Positions 23,347 to 34,807 of a stretch of DNA of 34,807 nucleotides are shown in pieces. The position numbers and the translations under genes were made by a program. This DNA comes from an uncultured Microbacteriaceae bacterium. Its GTDB lineage: Bacteria; Actinomycetota; Actinomycetes; Actinomycetales; Microbacteriaceae. The notes under the pieces are model-generated. The model was not told where the DNA came from and ran no database searches. It saw only the letters and a list, made by a program, of their open reading frames with translations. The DNA is taken from the NCBI GenBank assembly GCA_937872445.1, contig CALMSL010000043.1, positions 1 through 34,807 of the forward strand. The letters are read 5' to 3'. Position 1 is the first letter of the stretch. The number at the start of each line of letters is the position of its first letter.

Positions 23347-24299
23347 CCACCTCGAACGCAGTGACCGTGGAGGGCCTCGAAAAGAACTTCGGTTCGACTC
23401 GCGCGCTCGACGGACTGAACCTCACCATCGAAACCGGCACCGTCGCCGGATTCCTCGGCCCCAACGGGTCGGGAAAGACGACCACCATCCGCATCCTGCT
23501 CGGACTCCTCAAAGCCGACGGCGGAAACGCAACCCTCCTCGGCGGCGACCCGTGGAAGGATGCCGTCGAGCTCCACCGCCGCATCGCCTACGTCGCGGGC
23601 GACGTGACGCTCTGGCCGAGCCTCACCGGCGGCCAGGCCATCGACATCCTCGGATCCCTTCGCGGCGACCTCGACCGCATTCGGGTCGAGCAGTTCCTCC
23701 AGCGGTTCGACCTGGATCCGACGAAGAAGGCGCGCAGCTACTCCAAGGGCAACCGGCAGAAGGTCGGCCTTGTCGCGGCATTCGCGAGCCGCGCCGAACT
23801 GCTGATCCTCGACGAGCCAACGAACGGGCTCGACCCCCTCATGGAGGGCGTGTTCACCGAGTGCGTCGCCGAGGCGAAGGCCGAGGGTCGCTCTGTGCTG
23901 CTGTCCAGCCACGTTTTCGCTGAGGTGGAGAAACTCTGCGATACCGTGACGATCATCCGCGACGGCCGCACCGTCGAATCCGGCACGCTCGCCGAGCTTC
24001 GCCACCTGCAGCGCTCGACCATCACGCTGACGCTGGACGGGGACCCGAGTTCGCTCGAGACCGTCGACGGGGTCAACGACTTCGTCGCCGACGGGGGGCA
24101 CGCCACCTTCACGGTGGATAGCGCAGCGTTGCCGGCAGTTCTCGCCGCCATTGCGCCGCTGAAACCCCGCGAATTGGTCTCCACTCCCCCGTCACTCGAG
24201 GAATTGTTCCTGCGCCACTACGGCGTGCACCCGGTGGACACCGGCGCGTCTGTGGCACCACAGGCTGAGGCGGCACAGGCCGAGGCGGCACAGCGATGA
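23343..24299 (+). CDS. ABC exporter ATPase (drug/polyketide type)
   Basis: A protein of 318 residues. Walker A is GPNGSGKT (39-46), the signature is the variant YSKGNRQKV in place of LSGGQ, as usual in this exporter group, Walker B is LLILDEPTNGLD, and the H-loop lies in LLSSHVF. A C-terminal extension after about residue 220 resembles the DrrA/CcmA-type tail and ends in an Ala/Glu/Gln-rich repeat (AEAAQAEAAQ). It powers the membrane partner encoded next, with which it overlaps by 4 nt. The substrate is presumably a hydrophobic toxic compound. Confidence 0.9.
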   Translation: MTTSNAVTVEGLEKNFGSTRALDGLNLTIETGTVAGFLGPNGSGKTTTIRILLGLLKADGGNATLLGGDPWKDAVELHRRIAYVAGDVTLWPSLTGGQAIDILGSLRGDLDRIRVEQFLQRFDLDPTKKARSYSKGNRQKVGLVAAFASRAELLILDEPTNGLDPLMEGVFTECVAEAKAEGRSVLLSSHVFAEVEKLCDTVTIIRDGRTVESGTLAELRHLQRSTITLTLDGDPSSLETVDGVNDFVADGGHATFTVDSAALPAVLAAIAPLKPRELVSTPPSLEELFLRHYGVHPVDTGASVAPQAEAAQAEAAQR

Positions 24300-25979: not shown

Positions 25980-27332
25980 ATGACGACATCCACTGCCCTT
26001 GACATCGTTTCCGCAGTCCAATCGGGCGAGCAGAGCCCGGTTGCCGTGGTGGAGGGCGCCCTGCAGCGCATCCGGGAGAACGAGAACCTGGGCGCGCTGC
26101 AGGAGGTCTTCGCCGAAGAGGCGCTCGCCGAGGCGGCGGCCCTGGCGAACGCCAAGGATCTCGCTACGCTCCCCCTCGCCGGTTTGCCGATTCTCATCAA
26201 GGACACGATTCCGGTCGCCGGGCACCCGATGCGCGTCGGGTCCCTGGCGACGAGCGCTGAGCCCTCCGCGCACGATCACGAGGTTGTTCGGCGGCTGCGC
26301 GTAGCGGGTGCGGTCATTCTCGGTCTCACGACAGTTCCCGAACTGTGCGTGTTCGCGACCACGGATTCCCCCGCCGGCATCACCCGCAATCCGTGGAATC
26401 CGGATCGAACCCCTGGCGGGTCCTCCGGCGGATCAGGGGCGGCAGTTGCGGCCGGAATCGTGCCGGTGGCGCACGGCACCGACGGCATGGGCTCGATCCG
26501 CATTCCGTCGGCCAATAACGGCCTGTTCGGCATCAAGCCCGGCCGCGGCACCGTTCCGGCGGACCTCGGCGGCGATTCCTGGGGTGGAATGGCGGAGAAC
26601 GGACCCCTTGCCACAACCGTTGCGGATGCGGCACTCGTCCTGTCGGTGATGGCCGGGAATCCGGAGCTCGCGGCCGTGACCGAGCCGGCTGCGCCGCTGC
26701 GCATCGGCGTGGTTCCCGCGACGACATCCTTCCTCGTCCGTCTCGATCCGGAATGGAAGAAGTCGCTTTTGGCGACCGCCGATGCGCTGCGCGAGGCGGG
26801 CCACGAAGTCGAGGTCACGCGTTTCCCCTACCCAGCCAACCCGATCCCCATGTTTGCCCGATGGTTTGCCGGAGTGGCGAAGGATGCCGAGGGTCTCGAC
26901 GACTCGAAGCTGCAGCCCCGCACACTGCGCCACGTGAAGCTCGGACGGCAAGCCCTGACGAAGGGCTGGGTGAAGGAGCGCGACACCGACCGCCTCGAAG
27001 CGGATGCCCGCGCGTTCTTCGCCGACCACGACATCCTGCTCACGCCGATGCTCGCGCGCTCAGCCCCGAAGGCGGAAGCGTGGCACCACCGCTCCTGGCT
27101 GCGGAACATCTGGTCGAACCTGCAGTATGCGCCGTTCGCTGCACCGTGGAACATGGTGGGCTGGCCCGCGGCATCCGTGCCAGCAGGGTTCGACGCGAAC
27201 ACCGGGATGCCGACCGCCGTGCAAATCGTCGCGCCGCCCGGCCGGGAGTCGCTGATCCTCGGCGTGGCCGCGCAAATCGAACGGTTGCGCCCCTGGCCCC
27301 GGACGGCGCCGGCCGGCAACTCGGTCAGCTGA
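25980..27332 (+). CDS. Amidase signature family hydrolase
   Basis: A protein of 450 residues with the Ser-cisSer-Lys triad: Lys74 (ILIKDT), cis-Ser148 in TPGGSSGGSG and nucleophile Ser172 in DGMGSIRIP, with the 24-residue Ser-Ser spacing seen in GatA. The usual DTGGSIR is DGMGSIR here, a variant that keeps the serine. It hydrolyses amide bonds; the substrate (aryl or aliphatic amide, amino-acid amide) is open. No gatB or gatC lies nearby, so it is not the tRNA amidotransferase subunit. CAGGAT (25968-25973) could act as a -10 exactly 6 nt before the ATG, or AGGA as a distant Shine-Dalgarno. Its last 8 bp are shared with the convergent thioesterase gene. Confidence 0.88.
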   Translation: MTTSTALDIVSAVQSGEQSPVAVVEGALQRIRENENLGALQEVFAEEALAEAAALANAKDLATLPLAGLPILIKDTIPVAGHPMRVGSLATSAEPSAHDHEVVRRLRVAGAVILGLTTVPELCVFATTDSPAGITRNPWNPDRTPGGSSGGSGAAVAAGIVPVAHGTDGMGSIRIPSANNGLFGIKPGRGTVPADLGGDSWGGMAENGPLATTVADAALVLSVMAGNPELAAVTEPAAPLRIGVVPATTSFLVRLDPEWKKSLLATADALREAGHEVEVTRFPYPANPIPMFARWFAGVAKDAEGLDDSKLQPRTLRHVKLGRQALTKGWVKERDTDRLEADARAFFADHDILLTPMLARSAPKAEAWHHRSWLRNIWSNLQYAPFAAPWNMVGWPAASVPAGFDANTGMPTAVQIVAPPGRESLILGVAAQIERLRPWPRTAPAGNSVS

Positions 27333-28113
27333 GCGAACGCAGGGTGAGAATCTGCTCTGCGCGACCGAATGGCCCTGCCAAATCGCACAGAACCGTGGAC
27401 GTGAGCCCGATGCCATCGCTGCCGAACGAGACCGAGTTTTGCAGGCCCAACCACTCCCCGTGCGGCTCGCGGTACAGGTGCAATTGCAGGTCGACGTTCG
27501 GGAACGCGTAGCCGCCCGGCCCCGGCTCCACGCGCGTCGCGATCCCGTTGCTCGTATCGGCGACCCCGATGAGCCGGGCAAGATCCGAGAACGGGCCGGG
27601 TGAGACGAGCGGATGCCTCGGCCTGATCCAGGCGCGGCCATGCCCCGGTGCGTGGCCCGGAAGCGTGCGGATCTCGATCGAGTGGATGTAGCCGCCCGGC
27701 CACTCTCCCAGCGTGGTCGGTCTGGCTGATTCCGGCGGTCCGGACATCGGCTCGTCCTCGATGCCTTCGATGGCGCTCGTGTCCGAGAGTTGCAGCCGCC
27801 ACGCTGTCGCGCGCACGGCAGTCCGTCCGCCGGAGACGAGTTCCGCCTGCACGAGTTCGATGGTGCGGCCCGCGCGTAACATGGTCGTGACCACCTCGAA
27901 TTCGCCATCCGGGATCAGACCGAGAATGTCGTAGCTGATGCGCGCCATCCGCAGGTCGTCGCGCGGTTGGAAGTTCTCGAGGCAGTGCGCGAGGATCCCG
28001 GATACCGGCCCCATGTGCTGTTCGTGCGGATTCCACGCGCCCTGCGTGTGCACGGTGGCGGTGAAGTGACCGTTTCCGTAGTCGACGTAGTAAGGCTCGG
28101 ATGCCGCGCTCAC
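27325..28113 (-). CDS. Acyl-CoA thioesterase-like (double hotdog) protein
   Basis: A protein of 262 residues with TesB-like thioesterase architecture: an N-terminal hotdog (GPVSGILAHCLENF, RISYDILGLIPDGEFEVVT, AGRTIELVQAELVSGGRTAVRA) and a C-terminal hotdog (NVDLQLHLYREPHGEWLGLQNSV, ...GLTSTVLCDLAG). Such enzymes hydrolyse acyl-CoA thioesters; the chain length is unknown. GTG 28113 overlaps the upstream methyltransferase-like gene (GTGA), and the longer reading to 28512 is antisense-like extension inside that gene. The stop overlaps the amidase stop, the palindrome TCAGCTGA carrying both terminators. Confidence 0.83.
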   Translation of the reverse strand: MSAASEPYYVDYGNGHFTATVHTQGAWNPHEQHMGPVSGILAHCLENFQPRDDLRMARISYDILGLIPDGEFEVVTTMLRAGRTIELVQAELVSGGRTAVRATAWRLQLSDTSAIEGIEDEPMSGPPESARPTTLGEWPGGYIHSIEIRTLPGHAPGHGRAWIRPRHPLVSPGPFSDLARLIGVADTSNGIATRVEPGPGGYAFPNVDLQLHLYREPHGEWLGLQNSVSFGSDGIGLTSTVLCDLAGPFGRAEQILTLRSLS

Positions 28114-28625
28114 TTCTGCTCCCCCGGTCCCGGTTCTGGCCACCGGCCGATCCCGGGAATGAACCGGCCCACGCGCTGCGCGTACGCGGCAAATTCCGGA
28201 TGGCGTGCCGCGAGCATCCGTTCCTCCCACCGTGCCTTCACGGCAAAGAGGACGACGAGCGCAATCCAGGTCGCGAGATGCCACCAGGAGGCGCCGAGGA
28301 CGACGAGCCCCGCCCCGGCGATCATGAGGCCCGAATAGATTGGGTTGCGGACGACCCCGAACGGCCCGCGAATAACCAGTGCGGCGTGATCTTTGGGGAT
28401 CGGGCTCGCAGTGAGGGAGGACCCGAGGCTGAGGAGTCCTCCGGAGGCGATGATGAGTCCGGCCAGGACAAGCACGCCGGTCACGATCAGGACGCCAGGG
28501 TTTCGGGGCCACCAGCCGCCGTATGGCTCCAGTATCAATGCTGCGAGCAGGACCAGTTGCAGGGCCACGAGGCTCGCGGCCCCGGCCCTGCTGGCATCGT
28601 TCCGCGGGGCGCCGCTCGTGGTCAT
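28110..28625 (-). CDS. Isoprenylcysteine carboxyl methyltransferase-like membrane protein
   Basis: A protein of 171 residues with four membrane spans. The C-terminal half carries the ICMT/PEMT pattern: GPFGVVRNPIYSG, an RWEERMLAARHPEFAAYAQRVGRFIPG segment with the EE/Y/R residues that hold S-adenosylmethionine. Bacterial members are membrane methyltransferases with mostly unknown acceptors (isoprenoids, phospholipids). ATG 28625 is used; no good Shine-Dalgarno is seen (AGAGAG at most). It overlaps the thioesterase start by 4 nt, so the two are co-translated, and a link to acyl or isoprenoid lipid metabolism is plausible but unproven. Confidence 0.82.
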   Translation of the reverse strand: MTTSGAPRNDASRAGAASLVALQLVLLAALILEPYGGWWPRNPGVLIVTGVLVLAGLIIASGGLLSLGSSLTASPIPKDHAALVIRGPFGVVRNPIYSGLMIAGAGLVVLGASWWHLATWIALVVLFAVKARWEERMLAARHPEFAAYAQRVGRFIPGIGRWPEPGPGEQK

Positions 28626-28647: not shown

Positions 28648-28743
28648 TCAGTCGGTGCGAATCATGGCGACCATCGCCATAACTCCGATAACTGTAACGA
28701 CCGCACTAATGATTGCCATGATGGTGAGGAGGACAGCTTCCAT
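28648..28743 (-). CDS. 31-residue single-span membrane peptide A
   Basis: The open frame runs from ATG 28743 to TGA 28648. It starts MEAVLLTI, is hydrophobic over about residues 3-28, and ends in the polar IRTD. It resembles peptide B encoded just upstream: both have VLLTI near the N-terminus and the pattern G-V-x-A-x-V-A-M, hydrophobic, basic, Ser/Thr, polar at the C-terminus, with a 4-residue length difference in between. GATACT lies exactly 6 nt before the ATG, so it is probably leaderless. The family is not recognised. Size and shape fit small membrane regulators or type I toxins, but no antisense RNA was identified. Confidence 0.6.
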   Translation of the reverse strand: MEAVLLTIMAIISAVVTVIGVMAMVAMIRTD

Positions 28744-28749
28744 GTGGCC

Positions 28750-28779
28750 AGTATCGCCCGGAAGTTGACATAGGGCCAA
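28750..28779 (-). promoter_or_regulatory. Promoter of peptide A
   Basis: TTGGCC (28779-28774), an 18-bp spacer, GATACT (28755-28750), then ggccac and ATG. The -35 begins one base beyond the stop codon of peptide B. The element closely matches the peptide B promoter. Confidence 0.55.
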
Positions 28780-28872
28780 TCAGTGAGATTTAACCATGGC
28801 GACGAGTGCGAAAACGCCGAGGATGGCGACAATCGTCCCAATGGTGAGCAGTACGTATTCGATCGGATGCAT
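28780..28872 (-). CDS. 30-residue single-span membrane peptide B
   Basis: The open frame runs from ATG 28872 to TGA 28780. It begins MHPIEYVLLTI, has a hydrophobic core through about residue 27, and ends KSH. It shares VLLTI and the GVxAxVAM tail with peptide A, so the two look like a tandem duplication. AATACT ends 6 nt before the ATG, the same geometry as in A. An AGGAG occurs 12 nt upstream of the ATG, too far to be a good ribosome site and upstream of the predicted start point. No function can be assigned. Confidence 0.6.
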   Translation of the reverse strand: MHPIEYVLLTIGTIVAILGVFALVAMVKSH

Positions 28873-28878
28873 AGTGCC

Positions 28879-28907
28879 AGTATTCTCCTGTTCCGCGTTT
28901 CAGCCAA
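28879..28907 (-). promoter_or_regulatory. Promoter of peptide B
   Basis: TTGGCT (28907-28902), a 17-bp spacer, AATACT (28884-28879), then ggcact and ATG. Compared with the peptide A promoter it shares TTGGCY and ATACTGGC. It lies just beyond the stop of the GNAT remnant. Confidence 0.55.
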
Positions 28908-28908
28908 C

Positions 28909-29239
28909 TCACCGCACGAGTCTGATCTCCCGGATGTTGTCGTAGTCGGGGTCGATCTTCTTCGCGCCGTCCGGTTCGAATCCGTTTCGACGGTAGAACG
29001 CGATCGCGCGCGGGTTCTCGTCGAGTACCCAGAGCATGGCGGGGCGGCCGCTGAGAACGGCATCCAGCAGCGCCTGGCCGAGTCCGGATCCGTGGTGTGC
29101 TGCGAGGAGGTAAATGGTGCTGAGTTCAATATCTCTCGGGCGGAAACTTTCCCGTGTAGGTTTCCACGTGGGCGAGATAGTGCACGCGCCCGATCGCGTC
29201 GGCGTCCTCGATCGTCGCCTTCCGCACGCTCCCGTTCAT
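28909..29239 (-). pseudogene. GNAT acetyltransferase remnant with internal deletion and frameshift
   Basis: From ATG 29239 a normal GNAT N-terminus is read (VRKATIEDADAIGRVHYLAH, then ETYTGKFP), but it hits TGA at 29128-29126 after 37 codons. In another frame the C-terminal part continues to the stop at 28911-28909: LSTIYLLAAHHGSGLGQALL with the acetyl-CoA-binding loop, then ENPRAIAFYRRNGFEPDG. The whole coding length is about 108 codons, where relatives have about 165-175. The strands between the N-terminal helix and the acetyl-CoA motif are missing, so the likely cause is one out-of-frame deletion of roughly 170-200 bp near 29126-29140. The promoter-like TACTAT (29251-29246), 6 nt before the ATG, is still intact. 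It is unlikely to give an active enzyme. Confidence 0.75.
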
Positions 29240-32047: not shown

Positions 32048-32704
32048 ATGTCCAACACTGCGCTGGCGAGCGTCCCCGAACTGCGGGAACGCATCCGGCA
32101 ACTGCAGGCGACGAAGCTCGACACCCGCAGCCTGCCCACGCATCCGGCGATCGCTCGGCTGCTGCCCGGCGGCGCGCTCCAAAAGGGCGCGACCTACTCG
32201 GTCGACCGCTCCCTCACCCTGACCATGCTGCTGCTCGCCGCACCGTCTGCCGCCGGAGCGTGGTGCGGCGTCGTCGGGGTGCCCGAGTTCGGCGTGGAAG
32301 CCGCGGCCGGATTCGGCATCGACCTCGGGAGGCTCGTGCTGGTTCCCGACCCCGGCGACCAGTGGCTCGCCACGACGGGGGCGATCGCCGACGCGCTGCG
32401 TGTCATCGTGACCCGCCCGCCAAAACGGGCAAGCGATGCGAGTGTTGCACGGCTCTCCGCACGGTTACGCAAACGCGGTGCAACGCTGCTCGTGCTGGGC
32501 AACGGGTTGCACAACACCTGGCCGCAGAGCGAAGCGATGCTGAGCATCACCGAAAGTTCCTGGACCGGAATCGGCGACGGCCATGGCCACCTGCAGTCGA
32601 GAGAAGCCACCGTGACCGTCACGAGCAGGACGGGTGGCAGGCCCCGCAGCGCGCGCATCCTTCTGCCCGAAAAATACAGTGACACAGGAGTGCAATCGGC
32701 CTAA
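32048..32704 (+). CDS. imuA': ImuA'-like mutasome protein
   Basis: A protein of 218 residues, weakly RecA-like: a LPGGALQKGATYSV stretch stands where RecA/SulA-type proteins have the P-loop but lacks the GKT, so ATP binding is doubtful. Hydrophobic strands LTMLLLAA, RLVLVPD and TLLVLG follow, as in an ATPase core. In actinobacteria a protein of this kind is encoded with ImuB (and DnaE2) and is needed for DNA-damage-induced mutagenesis. The assignment rests on the SOS box, on imuB downstream and on overall likeness. It is leaderless by promoter geometry. A methyltransferase gene separates it from imuB, and that gene's promoter lies in the last 26 bp of this gene. Confidence 0.75.
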   Translation: MSNTALASVPELRERIRQLQATKLDTRSLPTHPAIARLLPGGALQKGATYSVDRSLTLTMLLLAAPSAAGAWCGVVGVPEFGVEAAAGFGIDLGRLVLVPDPGDQWLATTGAIADALRVIVTRPPKRASDASVARLSARLRKRGATLLVLGNGLHNTWPQSEAMLSITESSWTGIGDGHGHLQSREATVTVTSRTGGRPRSARILLPEKYSDTGVQSA

Positions 32705-33553: not shown

Positions 33554-34807
33554 ATGGCTTTTCCCACGAGTGCTCCGGAGCGCGTGCTGCTCCTGTGGTG
33601 CCCGGACTGGCCGGTTGAGGCGGCCATTCGCACTCAGGGTCTGAAACCGGATGCCCTGATTGCCATCATCGAGACCGGCCGCGTGTTCGCGTGCTCGGCC
33701 TCCGCCCGCGCCGAAGGCGTGATCCGCGGGCTCAAACTGCGGGAGGCACAGGCGCGTTGCCCCTCCCTCATCGTCACACCGCATCGCCCGGACGATGAAG
33801 CGCGCGCATTCGAACCCGTGCTCACCGCGATCGAGGAGCTCATGCCTGGAGTGCAGCCGCTACGTCCCGGCGTGTGCGCCATCCGGGCACGCGGCCCCGC
33901 CACCTACTACGGCGGCGAGGAAGAGGCAGCTCTCTGGCTGCTCGACCAGCTCGACGAGCTGGGCGTGCCCGGTACCCGCATCGGCATCGCCGACGGCGTG
34001 TTCACGGCGGAGCAGGCGGCCAGGCAGCGGTTTCCGCAGCGCATCCGCGTCGTTTCGGCAGGGACAGCAGCGGAGTATCTCTCTCCTCTGCCCATTGGAG
34101 TCCTCGATGATTCCAGCGCGAACGAGGCATCGGTCGTGACGCTCCTGCGGCGGCTCGGCATGTACACGCTCGGCGACTTCGCTGCTCTCGATGCCGGCGA
34201 TGTGCGCGACCGTCTCGGCGAACAGGGCGCGCGGCTGCACGCTCTTTCCGGCGGGCTGGACTCGCGGCCGGTCGTTGCCCGCGTTCCGTCAGACGATCTG
34301 GAGTGCGCCATCGACTTCGAACCCGCCGTCGATCGCATCGACCAGGTCGCGTTCGGGGTACGCGCCCTTGCCGACCGGTTCATCGCAGGACTCACCTCCG
34401 CGAAACTTGTGTGCACGGCCGTGCGCGTCGAACTGGACTCGGAGAGCGGCGAACTCTCCTCGCGCACGTGGCTGCATCCGCGCTCGTTCACCGCGTCGGA
34501 AGTCGTCGACCGCGTGCGCTGGCAACTGCAGGGCGGCGCGTCCGAAGTGGGGTTGAGTTCCGGCATCGTCACTGTGCGGCTCATTTCGGCGAGCGTCGAC
34601 TCGATTGGCAACCACGAGGAAGGGCTGTTCGGCGGCGGGCCGGATGAGCGCATCCACCACGCCCTCTCGCGCGTGCAGGGCATGCTCGGCCGCACCGCCG
34701 TGCTCACGGGCGCCATCGGCGGCGGGAGGGGCCCGGCGGACCGCATGACGCTCGTCCCGTGGGGGGACCGGCTCCTGGATGTCCCCCAGCCCCCACCCCC
34801 CCGGCCC
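33554..34807 (+). CDS. imuB: ImuB, DNA polymerase Y family mutasome adapter (3' partial)
   Basis: 418 codons are open to the window edge with no stop. The N-terminus (VLLLWCPDWPVEAA) and the stretch VFACSASARAEGVIRGLKLREAQARCP are those of Y-family polymerases of the ImuB branch. The palm position that holds Asp-Glu in active Y polymerases is replaced (PGVCAIRARG), as expected for ImuB, which is thought to serve as a non-catalytic bridge between the beta clamp, ImuA' and DnaE2. The helix-hairpin-helix-like LLRRLGMYTLGDFAAL segment and a little-finger region follow. LexA box and leaderless -10 lie upstream. The last 30 bases are almost pure C-runs and may contain errors. dnaE2 would be expected further downstream. 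Confidence 0.88.
   Translation, partial: MAFPTSAPERVLLLWCPDWPVEAAIRTQGLKPDALIAIIETGRVFACSASARAEGVIRGLKLREAQARCPSLIVTPHRPDDEARAFEPVLTAIEELMPGVQPLRPGVCAIRARGPATYYGGEEEAALWLLDQLDELGVPGTRIGIADGVFTAEQAARQRFPQRIRVVSAGTAAEYLSPLPIGVLDDSSANEASVVTLLRRLGMYTLGDFAALDAGDVRDRLGEQGARLHALSGGLDSRPVVARVPSDDLECAIDFEPAVDRIDQVAFGVRALADRFIAGLTSAKLVCTAVRVELDSESGELSSRTWLHPRSFTASEVVDRVRWQLQGGASEVGLSSGIVTVRLISASVDSIGNHEEGLFGGGPDERIHHALSRVQGMLGRTAVLTGAIGGGRGPADRMTLVPWGDRLLDVPQPPPPRP

Follow-up and report, generated by a model that had tools for sequence, protein, structure and literature searches.

On the minus strand of a 34,807-nucleotide stretch of Microbacteriaceae DNA (the window, that is, the whole stretch analysed here), two frames coding for 30 and 31 residues, pep1 and pep2, lie one behind the other, and the question they raise is whether frames this short are genuine genes and, if so, what their products do. 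A sequence-only reading had proposed that they are duplicated real genes for single-span membrane peptides, each with its own conserved leaderless promoter, and that the peptides may act as type I toxins or as subunits or regulators of membrane complexes. Re-reading the sequence bore out the two frames, the promoter-like boxes and their spacings to the base (Table 1).

Two short frames and their promoters

Promoter 1 consists of TTGGCT, 17 nt, AATACT, 6 nt and the ATG of pep1, and promoter 2 of TTGGCC, 18 nt, GATACT, 6 nt and the ATG of pep2, the TTGGCC immediately abutting the pep1 stop codon. At both genes the -10 box would place +1 on or near the start codon. In mycobacteria, as described in the available part of Shell et al. 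2015 (PMC4633059), the leaderless layout has the -10 box directly before the start codon without a special motif, and leaderless initiation needs nothing beyond a 5' ATG or GTG.

Table 1. Coordinates of the features discussed, in the window unless another locus is named.
Feature	Position	Strand	Remarks
pep1	28780..28872	minus	30 aa single-span membrane protein; ATG 28872, stop 28780-28782; sequence MHPIEYVLLTIGTIVAILGVFALVAMVKSH
pep1 -35-like TTGGCT	28902..28907	minus	weakly kept in relatives
pep1 -10-like AATACT	28879..28884	minus	6 nt before ATG; RATACTGG in 7/7 pep1 loci
pep2	28648..28743	minus	31 aa single-span membrane protein; ATG 28743, stop 28648-28650; sequence MEAVLLTIMAIISAVVTVIGVMAMVAMIRTD
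pep2 -35-like TTGGCC	28774..28779	minus	unchanged in G003
pep2 -10-like GATACT	28750..28755	minus	6 nt before ATG; unchanged in G003
PEMT/ICMT-like membrane methyltransferase	28110..28625	minus	PF04191, 36.2 bits, cut-off 25; 22 nt after pep2
acyl-CoA thioesterase-like gene	27325..28113	minus	4HBT_3, 4HBT_3C; overlaps methyltransferase end
ImuA' (218 aa)	32048-32704	plus	NF058630, 170.6 bits, cut-off 65; starts 6 nt after RATACT
IMS-family polymerase frame (at least 418 aa)	33554-34807	plus	PF00817, 39.4 bits, cut-off 23.2; starts 6 nt after RATACT
second single-span leaderless-type ORF of Homoserinimonas OAct 916 (G071)	L129, 1501-1608	plus	weak profile hit read in frame

The promoter had been described as conserved, and for the -10 box this holds: RATACTGG precedes the ATG in all seven pep1 loci, although it was not a criterion of the protein searches, and the gap from the hexamer to the ATG is 6 nt in all six copies of the window's genus and 9 nt in that of G071. 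It does not hold for the -35 box, where an exact TTGGCY is found by eye in three of the seven promoters, the others showing TTAGCC (G003), CTGGCC (G001 and G071) or no clear element (G007).

Within the window, the strict pattern TTGGCY-N16..18-RATACTGG-N3..5-ATG occurs just at pep1 and pep2. The looser RATACT-N4..8-ATG occurs four times, namely at pep1, at pep2, at a frame of 218 aa and at one of at least 418 aa that extends to the window end. These last two, ImuA' and an IMS-family polymerase frame, are DNA-damage mutagenesis genes and also look leaderless here. A special regulon element was dropped as an interpretation, since the promoter also stands before these two frames. Across the genome, ATACTGG-N2..6-ATG is modestly enriched (nine occurrences against three of the reversed pattern), and the nine comprise pep1, pep2, two sites that by eye look like gene starts (82 and 162 aa) and five that by eye do not. 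The ATACTGG promoter is also found elsewhere in the genome before an antitoxin-like gene and a MarR-like gene (both named by eye). Both peptides appear to have a leaderless promoter of their own, as proposed, but the layout is a general one, and the promoter looks like an ordinary leaderless promoter rather than a special paired element.

Conservation of pep1, pep2 and possible relatives

A protein search found pep1 in six of the eight genomes of the window's genus, probably the one holding Terrimesophilobacter mesophilus (Microbacteriaceae), at E <= 1.1e-9. It also occurs in Homoserinimonas sp. OAct 916 (G071), from another genus of the Microbacteriaceae, as seen when family-wide hits were read in frame. 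A pattern scan of a named collection recovers the same pep1 loci besides the window's own, and these belong to Terrimesophilobacter mesophilus, to four MAGs (titled Cryobacterium, Micrococcales or Homoserinimonas) and to Homoserinimonas sp. OAct 916. The protein search gave no pep1 match in the two other genomes of the genus, G002 and G004 (93 and 94% complete), so pep1 may be dispensable.

The sequence-only reading had suggested comparing synonymous with non-synonymous change in relatives. Among the six copies of the genus, with the start codon left out, 13, 4 and 27 of the 29 columns at codon positions 1, 2 and 3, respectively, are variable (binomial p = 1.3e-4), the pattern of a short ORF under purifying selection. 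Between the window and the copies in G005, G001, G007 and G006 there are 12 to 29 nucleotide differences but just 3 to 7 residue differences, whereas a neutral simulation (uniform substitution, without transition bias) expects 8 to 17 residue changes and gives values as low in at most 1 of 2000 runs for each of the four. The G071 copy is far more diverged, its residue differing from that of the window in 20 of 29 codons, and says little on selection. Each of the other five reading frames of the region is stopped in at least one of the six copies compared, one antisense frame staying open in five of them. Because variation falls on 27 of 29 third but just 4 of 29 second positions, selection must act on the peptide; with its presence in six genomes of the genus and in G071 and with its promoter retained, pep1 is a real gene, as had been proposed.

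The N-terminal MHPIEY of pep1 is strongly kept within the genus. Conservation along the predicted helix shows no significant periodicity (permutation share 0.41 at 100 degrees), and a conserved helix face was accordingly dropped as over-reading; any packing face is for this reason just a guess.

The evidence for pep2 is of a different kind. A profile including pep2, run against 398 genomes of the family, detected pep2 in just two of them, those of the window and G003, apart from weak hits, among the matches listed. The flanks of these two are about 94.5% identical; between them, the 96 nt of pep2 show a single synonymous change, the 93 nt of pep1 two changes and the 516 nt of the methyltransferase 10. 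With two sequences and too little change for a selection test, pep2 is a probable gene. As to its kinship with pep1, a profile made from pep1 only retrieves pep2 in its own genome at E = 0.008 (the next hit being at 1.0), and single-sequence searches with either peptide miss the other in that genome at E <= 10. The local alignment score of the two peptides is 58 against a shuffle mean of 24, with none of 5000 shuffles as high, and 9 of 300 hydrophobic segments from other loci reach the same value, a control biased by its top five, which are opposite-strand frames chosen for their resemblance to pep1. At the DNA level the similarity is modest, with a score of 18.5 that 44 of 3000 null scores (mean 11.9) also reach. 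Together, these comparisons make pep2 probably a paralogue of pep1, with a strength of paralogy that appears moderate. The idea of duplicated real genes thus stands for pep1, which is selected, and probably for pep2 as its paralogue, but the pep2 part comes from two genomes that are about 94.5% identical.

Two further ORFs suggest a wider family, with one genome each. Homoserinimonas sp. OAct 916 has a second ORF on another contig, MDPVAPLLYALLAINFILGAAALVSMMSRPRHRSTH, lying behind GAATACTGG and ATG (E = 0.124), and G160, from another genus, carries a pep2-like ORF, MAGVLLGVVGLITLVGGVLGIMALVAMVRSPYKG (E = 0.004), without an ATACTGG box. The G160 ORF aligns gap-free to pep2 with a score of 71 against a shuffle mean of 25, although shuffle scores are optimistic for both ORFs, which were chosen by resemblance among many weak hits. 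In a seven-row alignment that takes in pep2, the G160 ORF and the second G071 copy, only M1, G20, A23 and V25 are invariant (numbering of the first row, G160).

The searches behind this picture returned many hits that were not accepted. The pep1 search of the family matched 31 of 398 genomes at E <= 0.1, and seven were accepted (six of the genus and G071). Among the other 24, G356 had no locus and 23 were read in frame and rejected, since none combines a short complete ORF with the promoter; many of these are located on the strand opposite a gene that probably encodes a glycogen-debranching enzyme. A pattern of promoter, ATG and HP codons matched 8 of 398 genomes, seven of them accepted and G135 not, and its reversed control gave none among the matches listed. 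With a longer pattern, 18 stretches were found in a collection of genome contigs (6 accepted, 12 not). At order level, a profile search of 396 genomes gave two at E <= 0.001; one is the window's own, and the other, G489, has a frame of 371 aa and was rejected. At E <= 1 the profile including pep2 had hits, almost all of them weak, in 293 of 398 genomes; 14 short-frame hits among the matches listed were read, of which that of G160 was accepted and four represent a Kdp-linked ORF.

This Kdp-linked ORF encodes about 27-31 residues with one membrane span. In G117 (L075, from about 1489, MEKTVLDVVFVLGILALIALVALVGRAVERL) and in G241 (L136, from about 310, VLDVVYVLAIVAVFGVVALVAWGVEKL), it immediately precedes a KdpF-like ORF and a KdpA-like frame (both named by eye), and similar ORFs occur in G223 and G043. 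The G117 ORF reaches no Pfam or NCBIfam cut-off, and its product is possibly a second small Kdp-linked subunit.

The placements of these ORFs, in tandem in the window and G003, on two contigs in Homoserinimonas sp. OAct 916 (both copies with ATACTGG before the ATG) and as a pep2-like ORF in G160, allow a speculative and rather doubtful reading. A portable cassette of about 135 bp, made of a leaderless promoter and a single-helix ORF with a G-x2-A-x-V core, might copy and relocate as a unit within the Microbacteriaceae. Such a cassette would be fast-evolving, with a different partner in the membrane retuned by every copy, and the minimal gene would be its own mobile regulatory part; we regard this extension as similarly doubtful.

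Gene neighbourhood and proposed role

In the window, pep2 is followed by a PEMT/ICMT-like membrane methyltransferase gene and an acyl-CoA thioesterase-like gene (Table 1), and a single pep1-pep2-methyltransferase-thioesterase transcript is likely. On the other side of pep1, a GNAT acetyltransferase gene (28909-29239, minus strand) is broken, with two parts in different frames. The window is missing about 150 bp here compared to G003, where a frame of 159 codons is open, and the broken gene is either a pseudogene or an assembly error.

The neighbours of pep1 differ between genomes. It precedes the methyltransferase in G000, G003, G006 and G007 (with pep2 between them in G000 and G003), and in G006 the methyltransferase GTG comes right after the pep1 stop. 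The thioesterase directly follows pep1 in G005, which has no methyltransferase match, and the next long frame beside pep1 is convergent in G001 and G071. Neither pep1 nor the methyltransferase is matched in G004, and G002, which gave no pep1 match either, carries a truncated methyltransferase remnant and a distant second relative. The remnant (L099, about 1504-1715) has its middle missing and lies in a region that gave no pep1 match. No single gene adjoins pep1 in all seven genomes, and the neighbouring gene by itself is not the answer to the role of pep1.

Peptide and promoter are constant across the loci while the downstream context varies, and for this reason we prefer the reading that pep1 and pep2 are trans-acting, single-helix accessory or regulatory subunits of a putative membrane partner, to which we give about even odds (roughly 0.5). 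The sequence-only reading had left a choice between toxin and subunit or regulator; the second is favoured, and synteny, selection and the lack of a phage or plasmid match for pep1 (with the low-complexity filter on) speak against a type I toxin. In this model, pep1 and pep2 would be paralogous single-span microproteins made from leaderless mRNAs, with transcripts that begin on or beside the A of the ATG, where ribosomes would presumably initiate without a Shine-Dalgarno site. From its charges, the helix would insert with the acidic N-terminal end outside and the basic tail inside; the G071 copy of pep1 has no basic tail. The G-x2-A-x-V stretch in the second half of the helix may then serve to bind a resident membrane protein or complex, and selection would keep the peptide itself and not its translation as such. 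Pep2 would be a tandem copy, promoter and ORF together, that arose in the lineage of the window and G003. The methyltransferase is the first candidate partner in genomes that have one.

A special case of this model, in which the peptide is a dedicated small subunit or regulator of the PEMT/ICMT-like methyltransferase, is rather doubtful. It is consistent with the two genes lying on the same strand, adjoining or separated just by pep2, in G000, G003, G006 and G007, and with G004 and G002, which gave no pep1 match and have, respectively, no methyltransferase match or the remnant and a distant second relative. G005, G001 and G071, however, keep pep1 without the methyltransferase in that place. 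A search of the family for the methyltransferase matched 53 of 378 genomes (4 in the genus, 49 outside), and we read 28 of these loci, namely those of G006 and G007, which show pep1, and 26 from other genera, none of which has a pep1-like ORF upstream: in 22 of them, the 320 bases ahead of the match contain no hydrophobic ORF of 20-50 codons, and the hydrophobic ORF found upstream in the other four (L116-L119) is unlike pep1 by eye.

The same compact, same-strand spacing to the methyltransferase in the window, and the G006 stop directly before the GTG, could also point to a cis-acting leaderless uORF whose translation couples or tunes the methyltransferase-thioesterase operon, the peptides having little effect of their own. 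In mycobacteria, according to the available part of PMC4633059, small leaderless ORFs coupled in this way are over-represented, and in some cases their architecture is conserved but their sequence is not. The feature conserved here is the amino acid sequence, and pep1 has a convergent neighbour in two genomes and persists in one without a methyltransferase match, therefore pep1 is not just a cis leader, and we consider this explanation unlikely.

Size, a single hydrophobic helix and charged ends make the peptides similar to type I toxins, among which tandem copies occur, and one or both could in principle be repressed by an antisense RNA. The usual mechanism of these toxins needs sequestration of a 5' UTR or Shine-Dalgarno site, and a leaderless mRNA has neither. 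Synteny is stable and selection operates within the genus, and no match was found to phage or plasmid records for pep1 or to plasmid records for pep2 (with the BLAST low-complexity filter on, by which the hydrophobic queries may be partly masked). A consensus promoter scan found no site on either strand here, a scan that also misses both sense promoters, and an Rfam scan gave one match, far below the gathering score. We therefore judge a type I toxin very unlikely.

YohP is of the same size class as pep1 and pep2. In E. coli it reduces membrane potential (PMC12719787, available part), but a comparable stress microprotein, lowering membrane potential when made and having no stable protein partner, is quite improbable here, as the strongly kept MHPIEY end and G-x2-A suggest a specific contact.

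A candidate family of small membrane proteins

KdpF, CydX, CcoS/FixS, CtaJ and AcrZ are single-span, partner-binding accessory subunits of membrane complexes, and pep1 and pep2 resemble them in being short and having one helix, and would share the partner-binding role. Profile matches stay below cut-off, with FixS at E=0.048 (13.9 of 23.1 bits) and CtaJ at E=0.31 (11.4 of 43 bits) for pep1, and with 'smalltalk' at E=0.016 (15 of 24.7 bits) for pep2; neither peptide matches the KdpF profile at E <= 10. Pep1, pep2, the two G071 copies and the G160 ORF all stay below the cut-offs of the Pfam and NCBIfam models; pep1 matches no solved structure, and the G160 ORF no plasmid record (with the low-complexity filter on, which may partly mask a hydrophobic query). 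Oxidase and Kdp families are absent among the flanking window genes and the L046 and L049 neighbours scanned with Pfam, a scan in which no family was assigned to the G001 neighbour or to the 553 aa gene at 24296 and for which the flanks of the other relatives were compared just with the window genes.

Compared to the mycobacterial leaderless small proteins (Shell et al. 2015, PMC4633059, available part), pep1 and pep2 share a tiny ORF at the presumed mRNA 5' end, directly after the -10 box and often ahead of an operon. The differences are that pep1 is membrane-spanning, is clearly selected and also occurs beside a convergent neighbour, and that its starts are inferred rather than mapped. Type I toxins such as Fst (PMC10903887, seen in part) and TimP are similar in size and hydrophobicity, whereas pep1 appears leaderless and is selected and syntenic, with no sign of an antisense RNA in a promoter scan that misses the sense promoters as well. 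Both small subunits with a single span and small leaderless proteins are known kinds, as far as the available parts of PMC4633059, PMC10903887 and PMC12719787 go. The pep1/pep2 family is not named, among the matches listed, in titles and abstract openings of the literature on the genus and on leaderless small proteins in Actinobacteria or Microbacteriaceae, a search mostly without subscription papers.

Overall, pep1 and pep2 do not look like toxins but like a new family in an already known class, that of small membrane proteins. They add a small membrane protein family without a Pfam or NCBIfam cut-off match, and indicate that a leaderless promoter, taken together with codon-position conservation, can reveal a true 30-codon gene in raw sequence. 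The two also offer a concrete pair for testing microprotein duplication.
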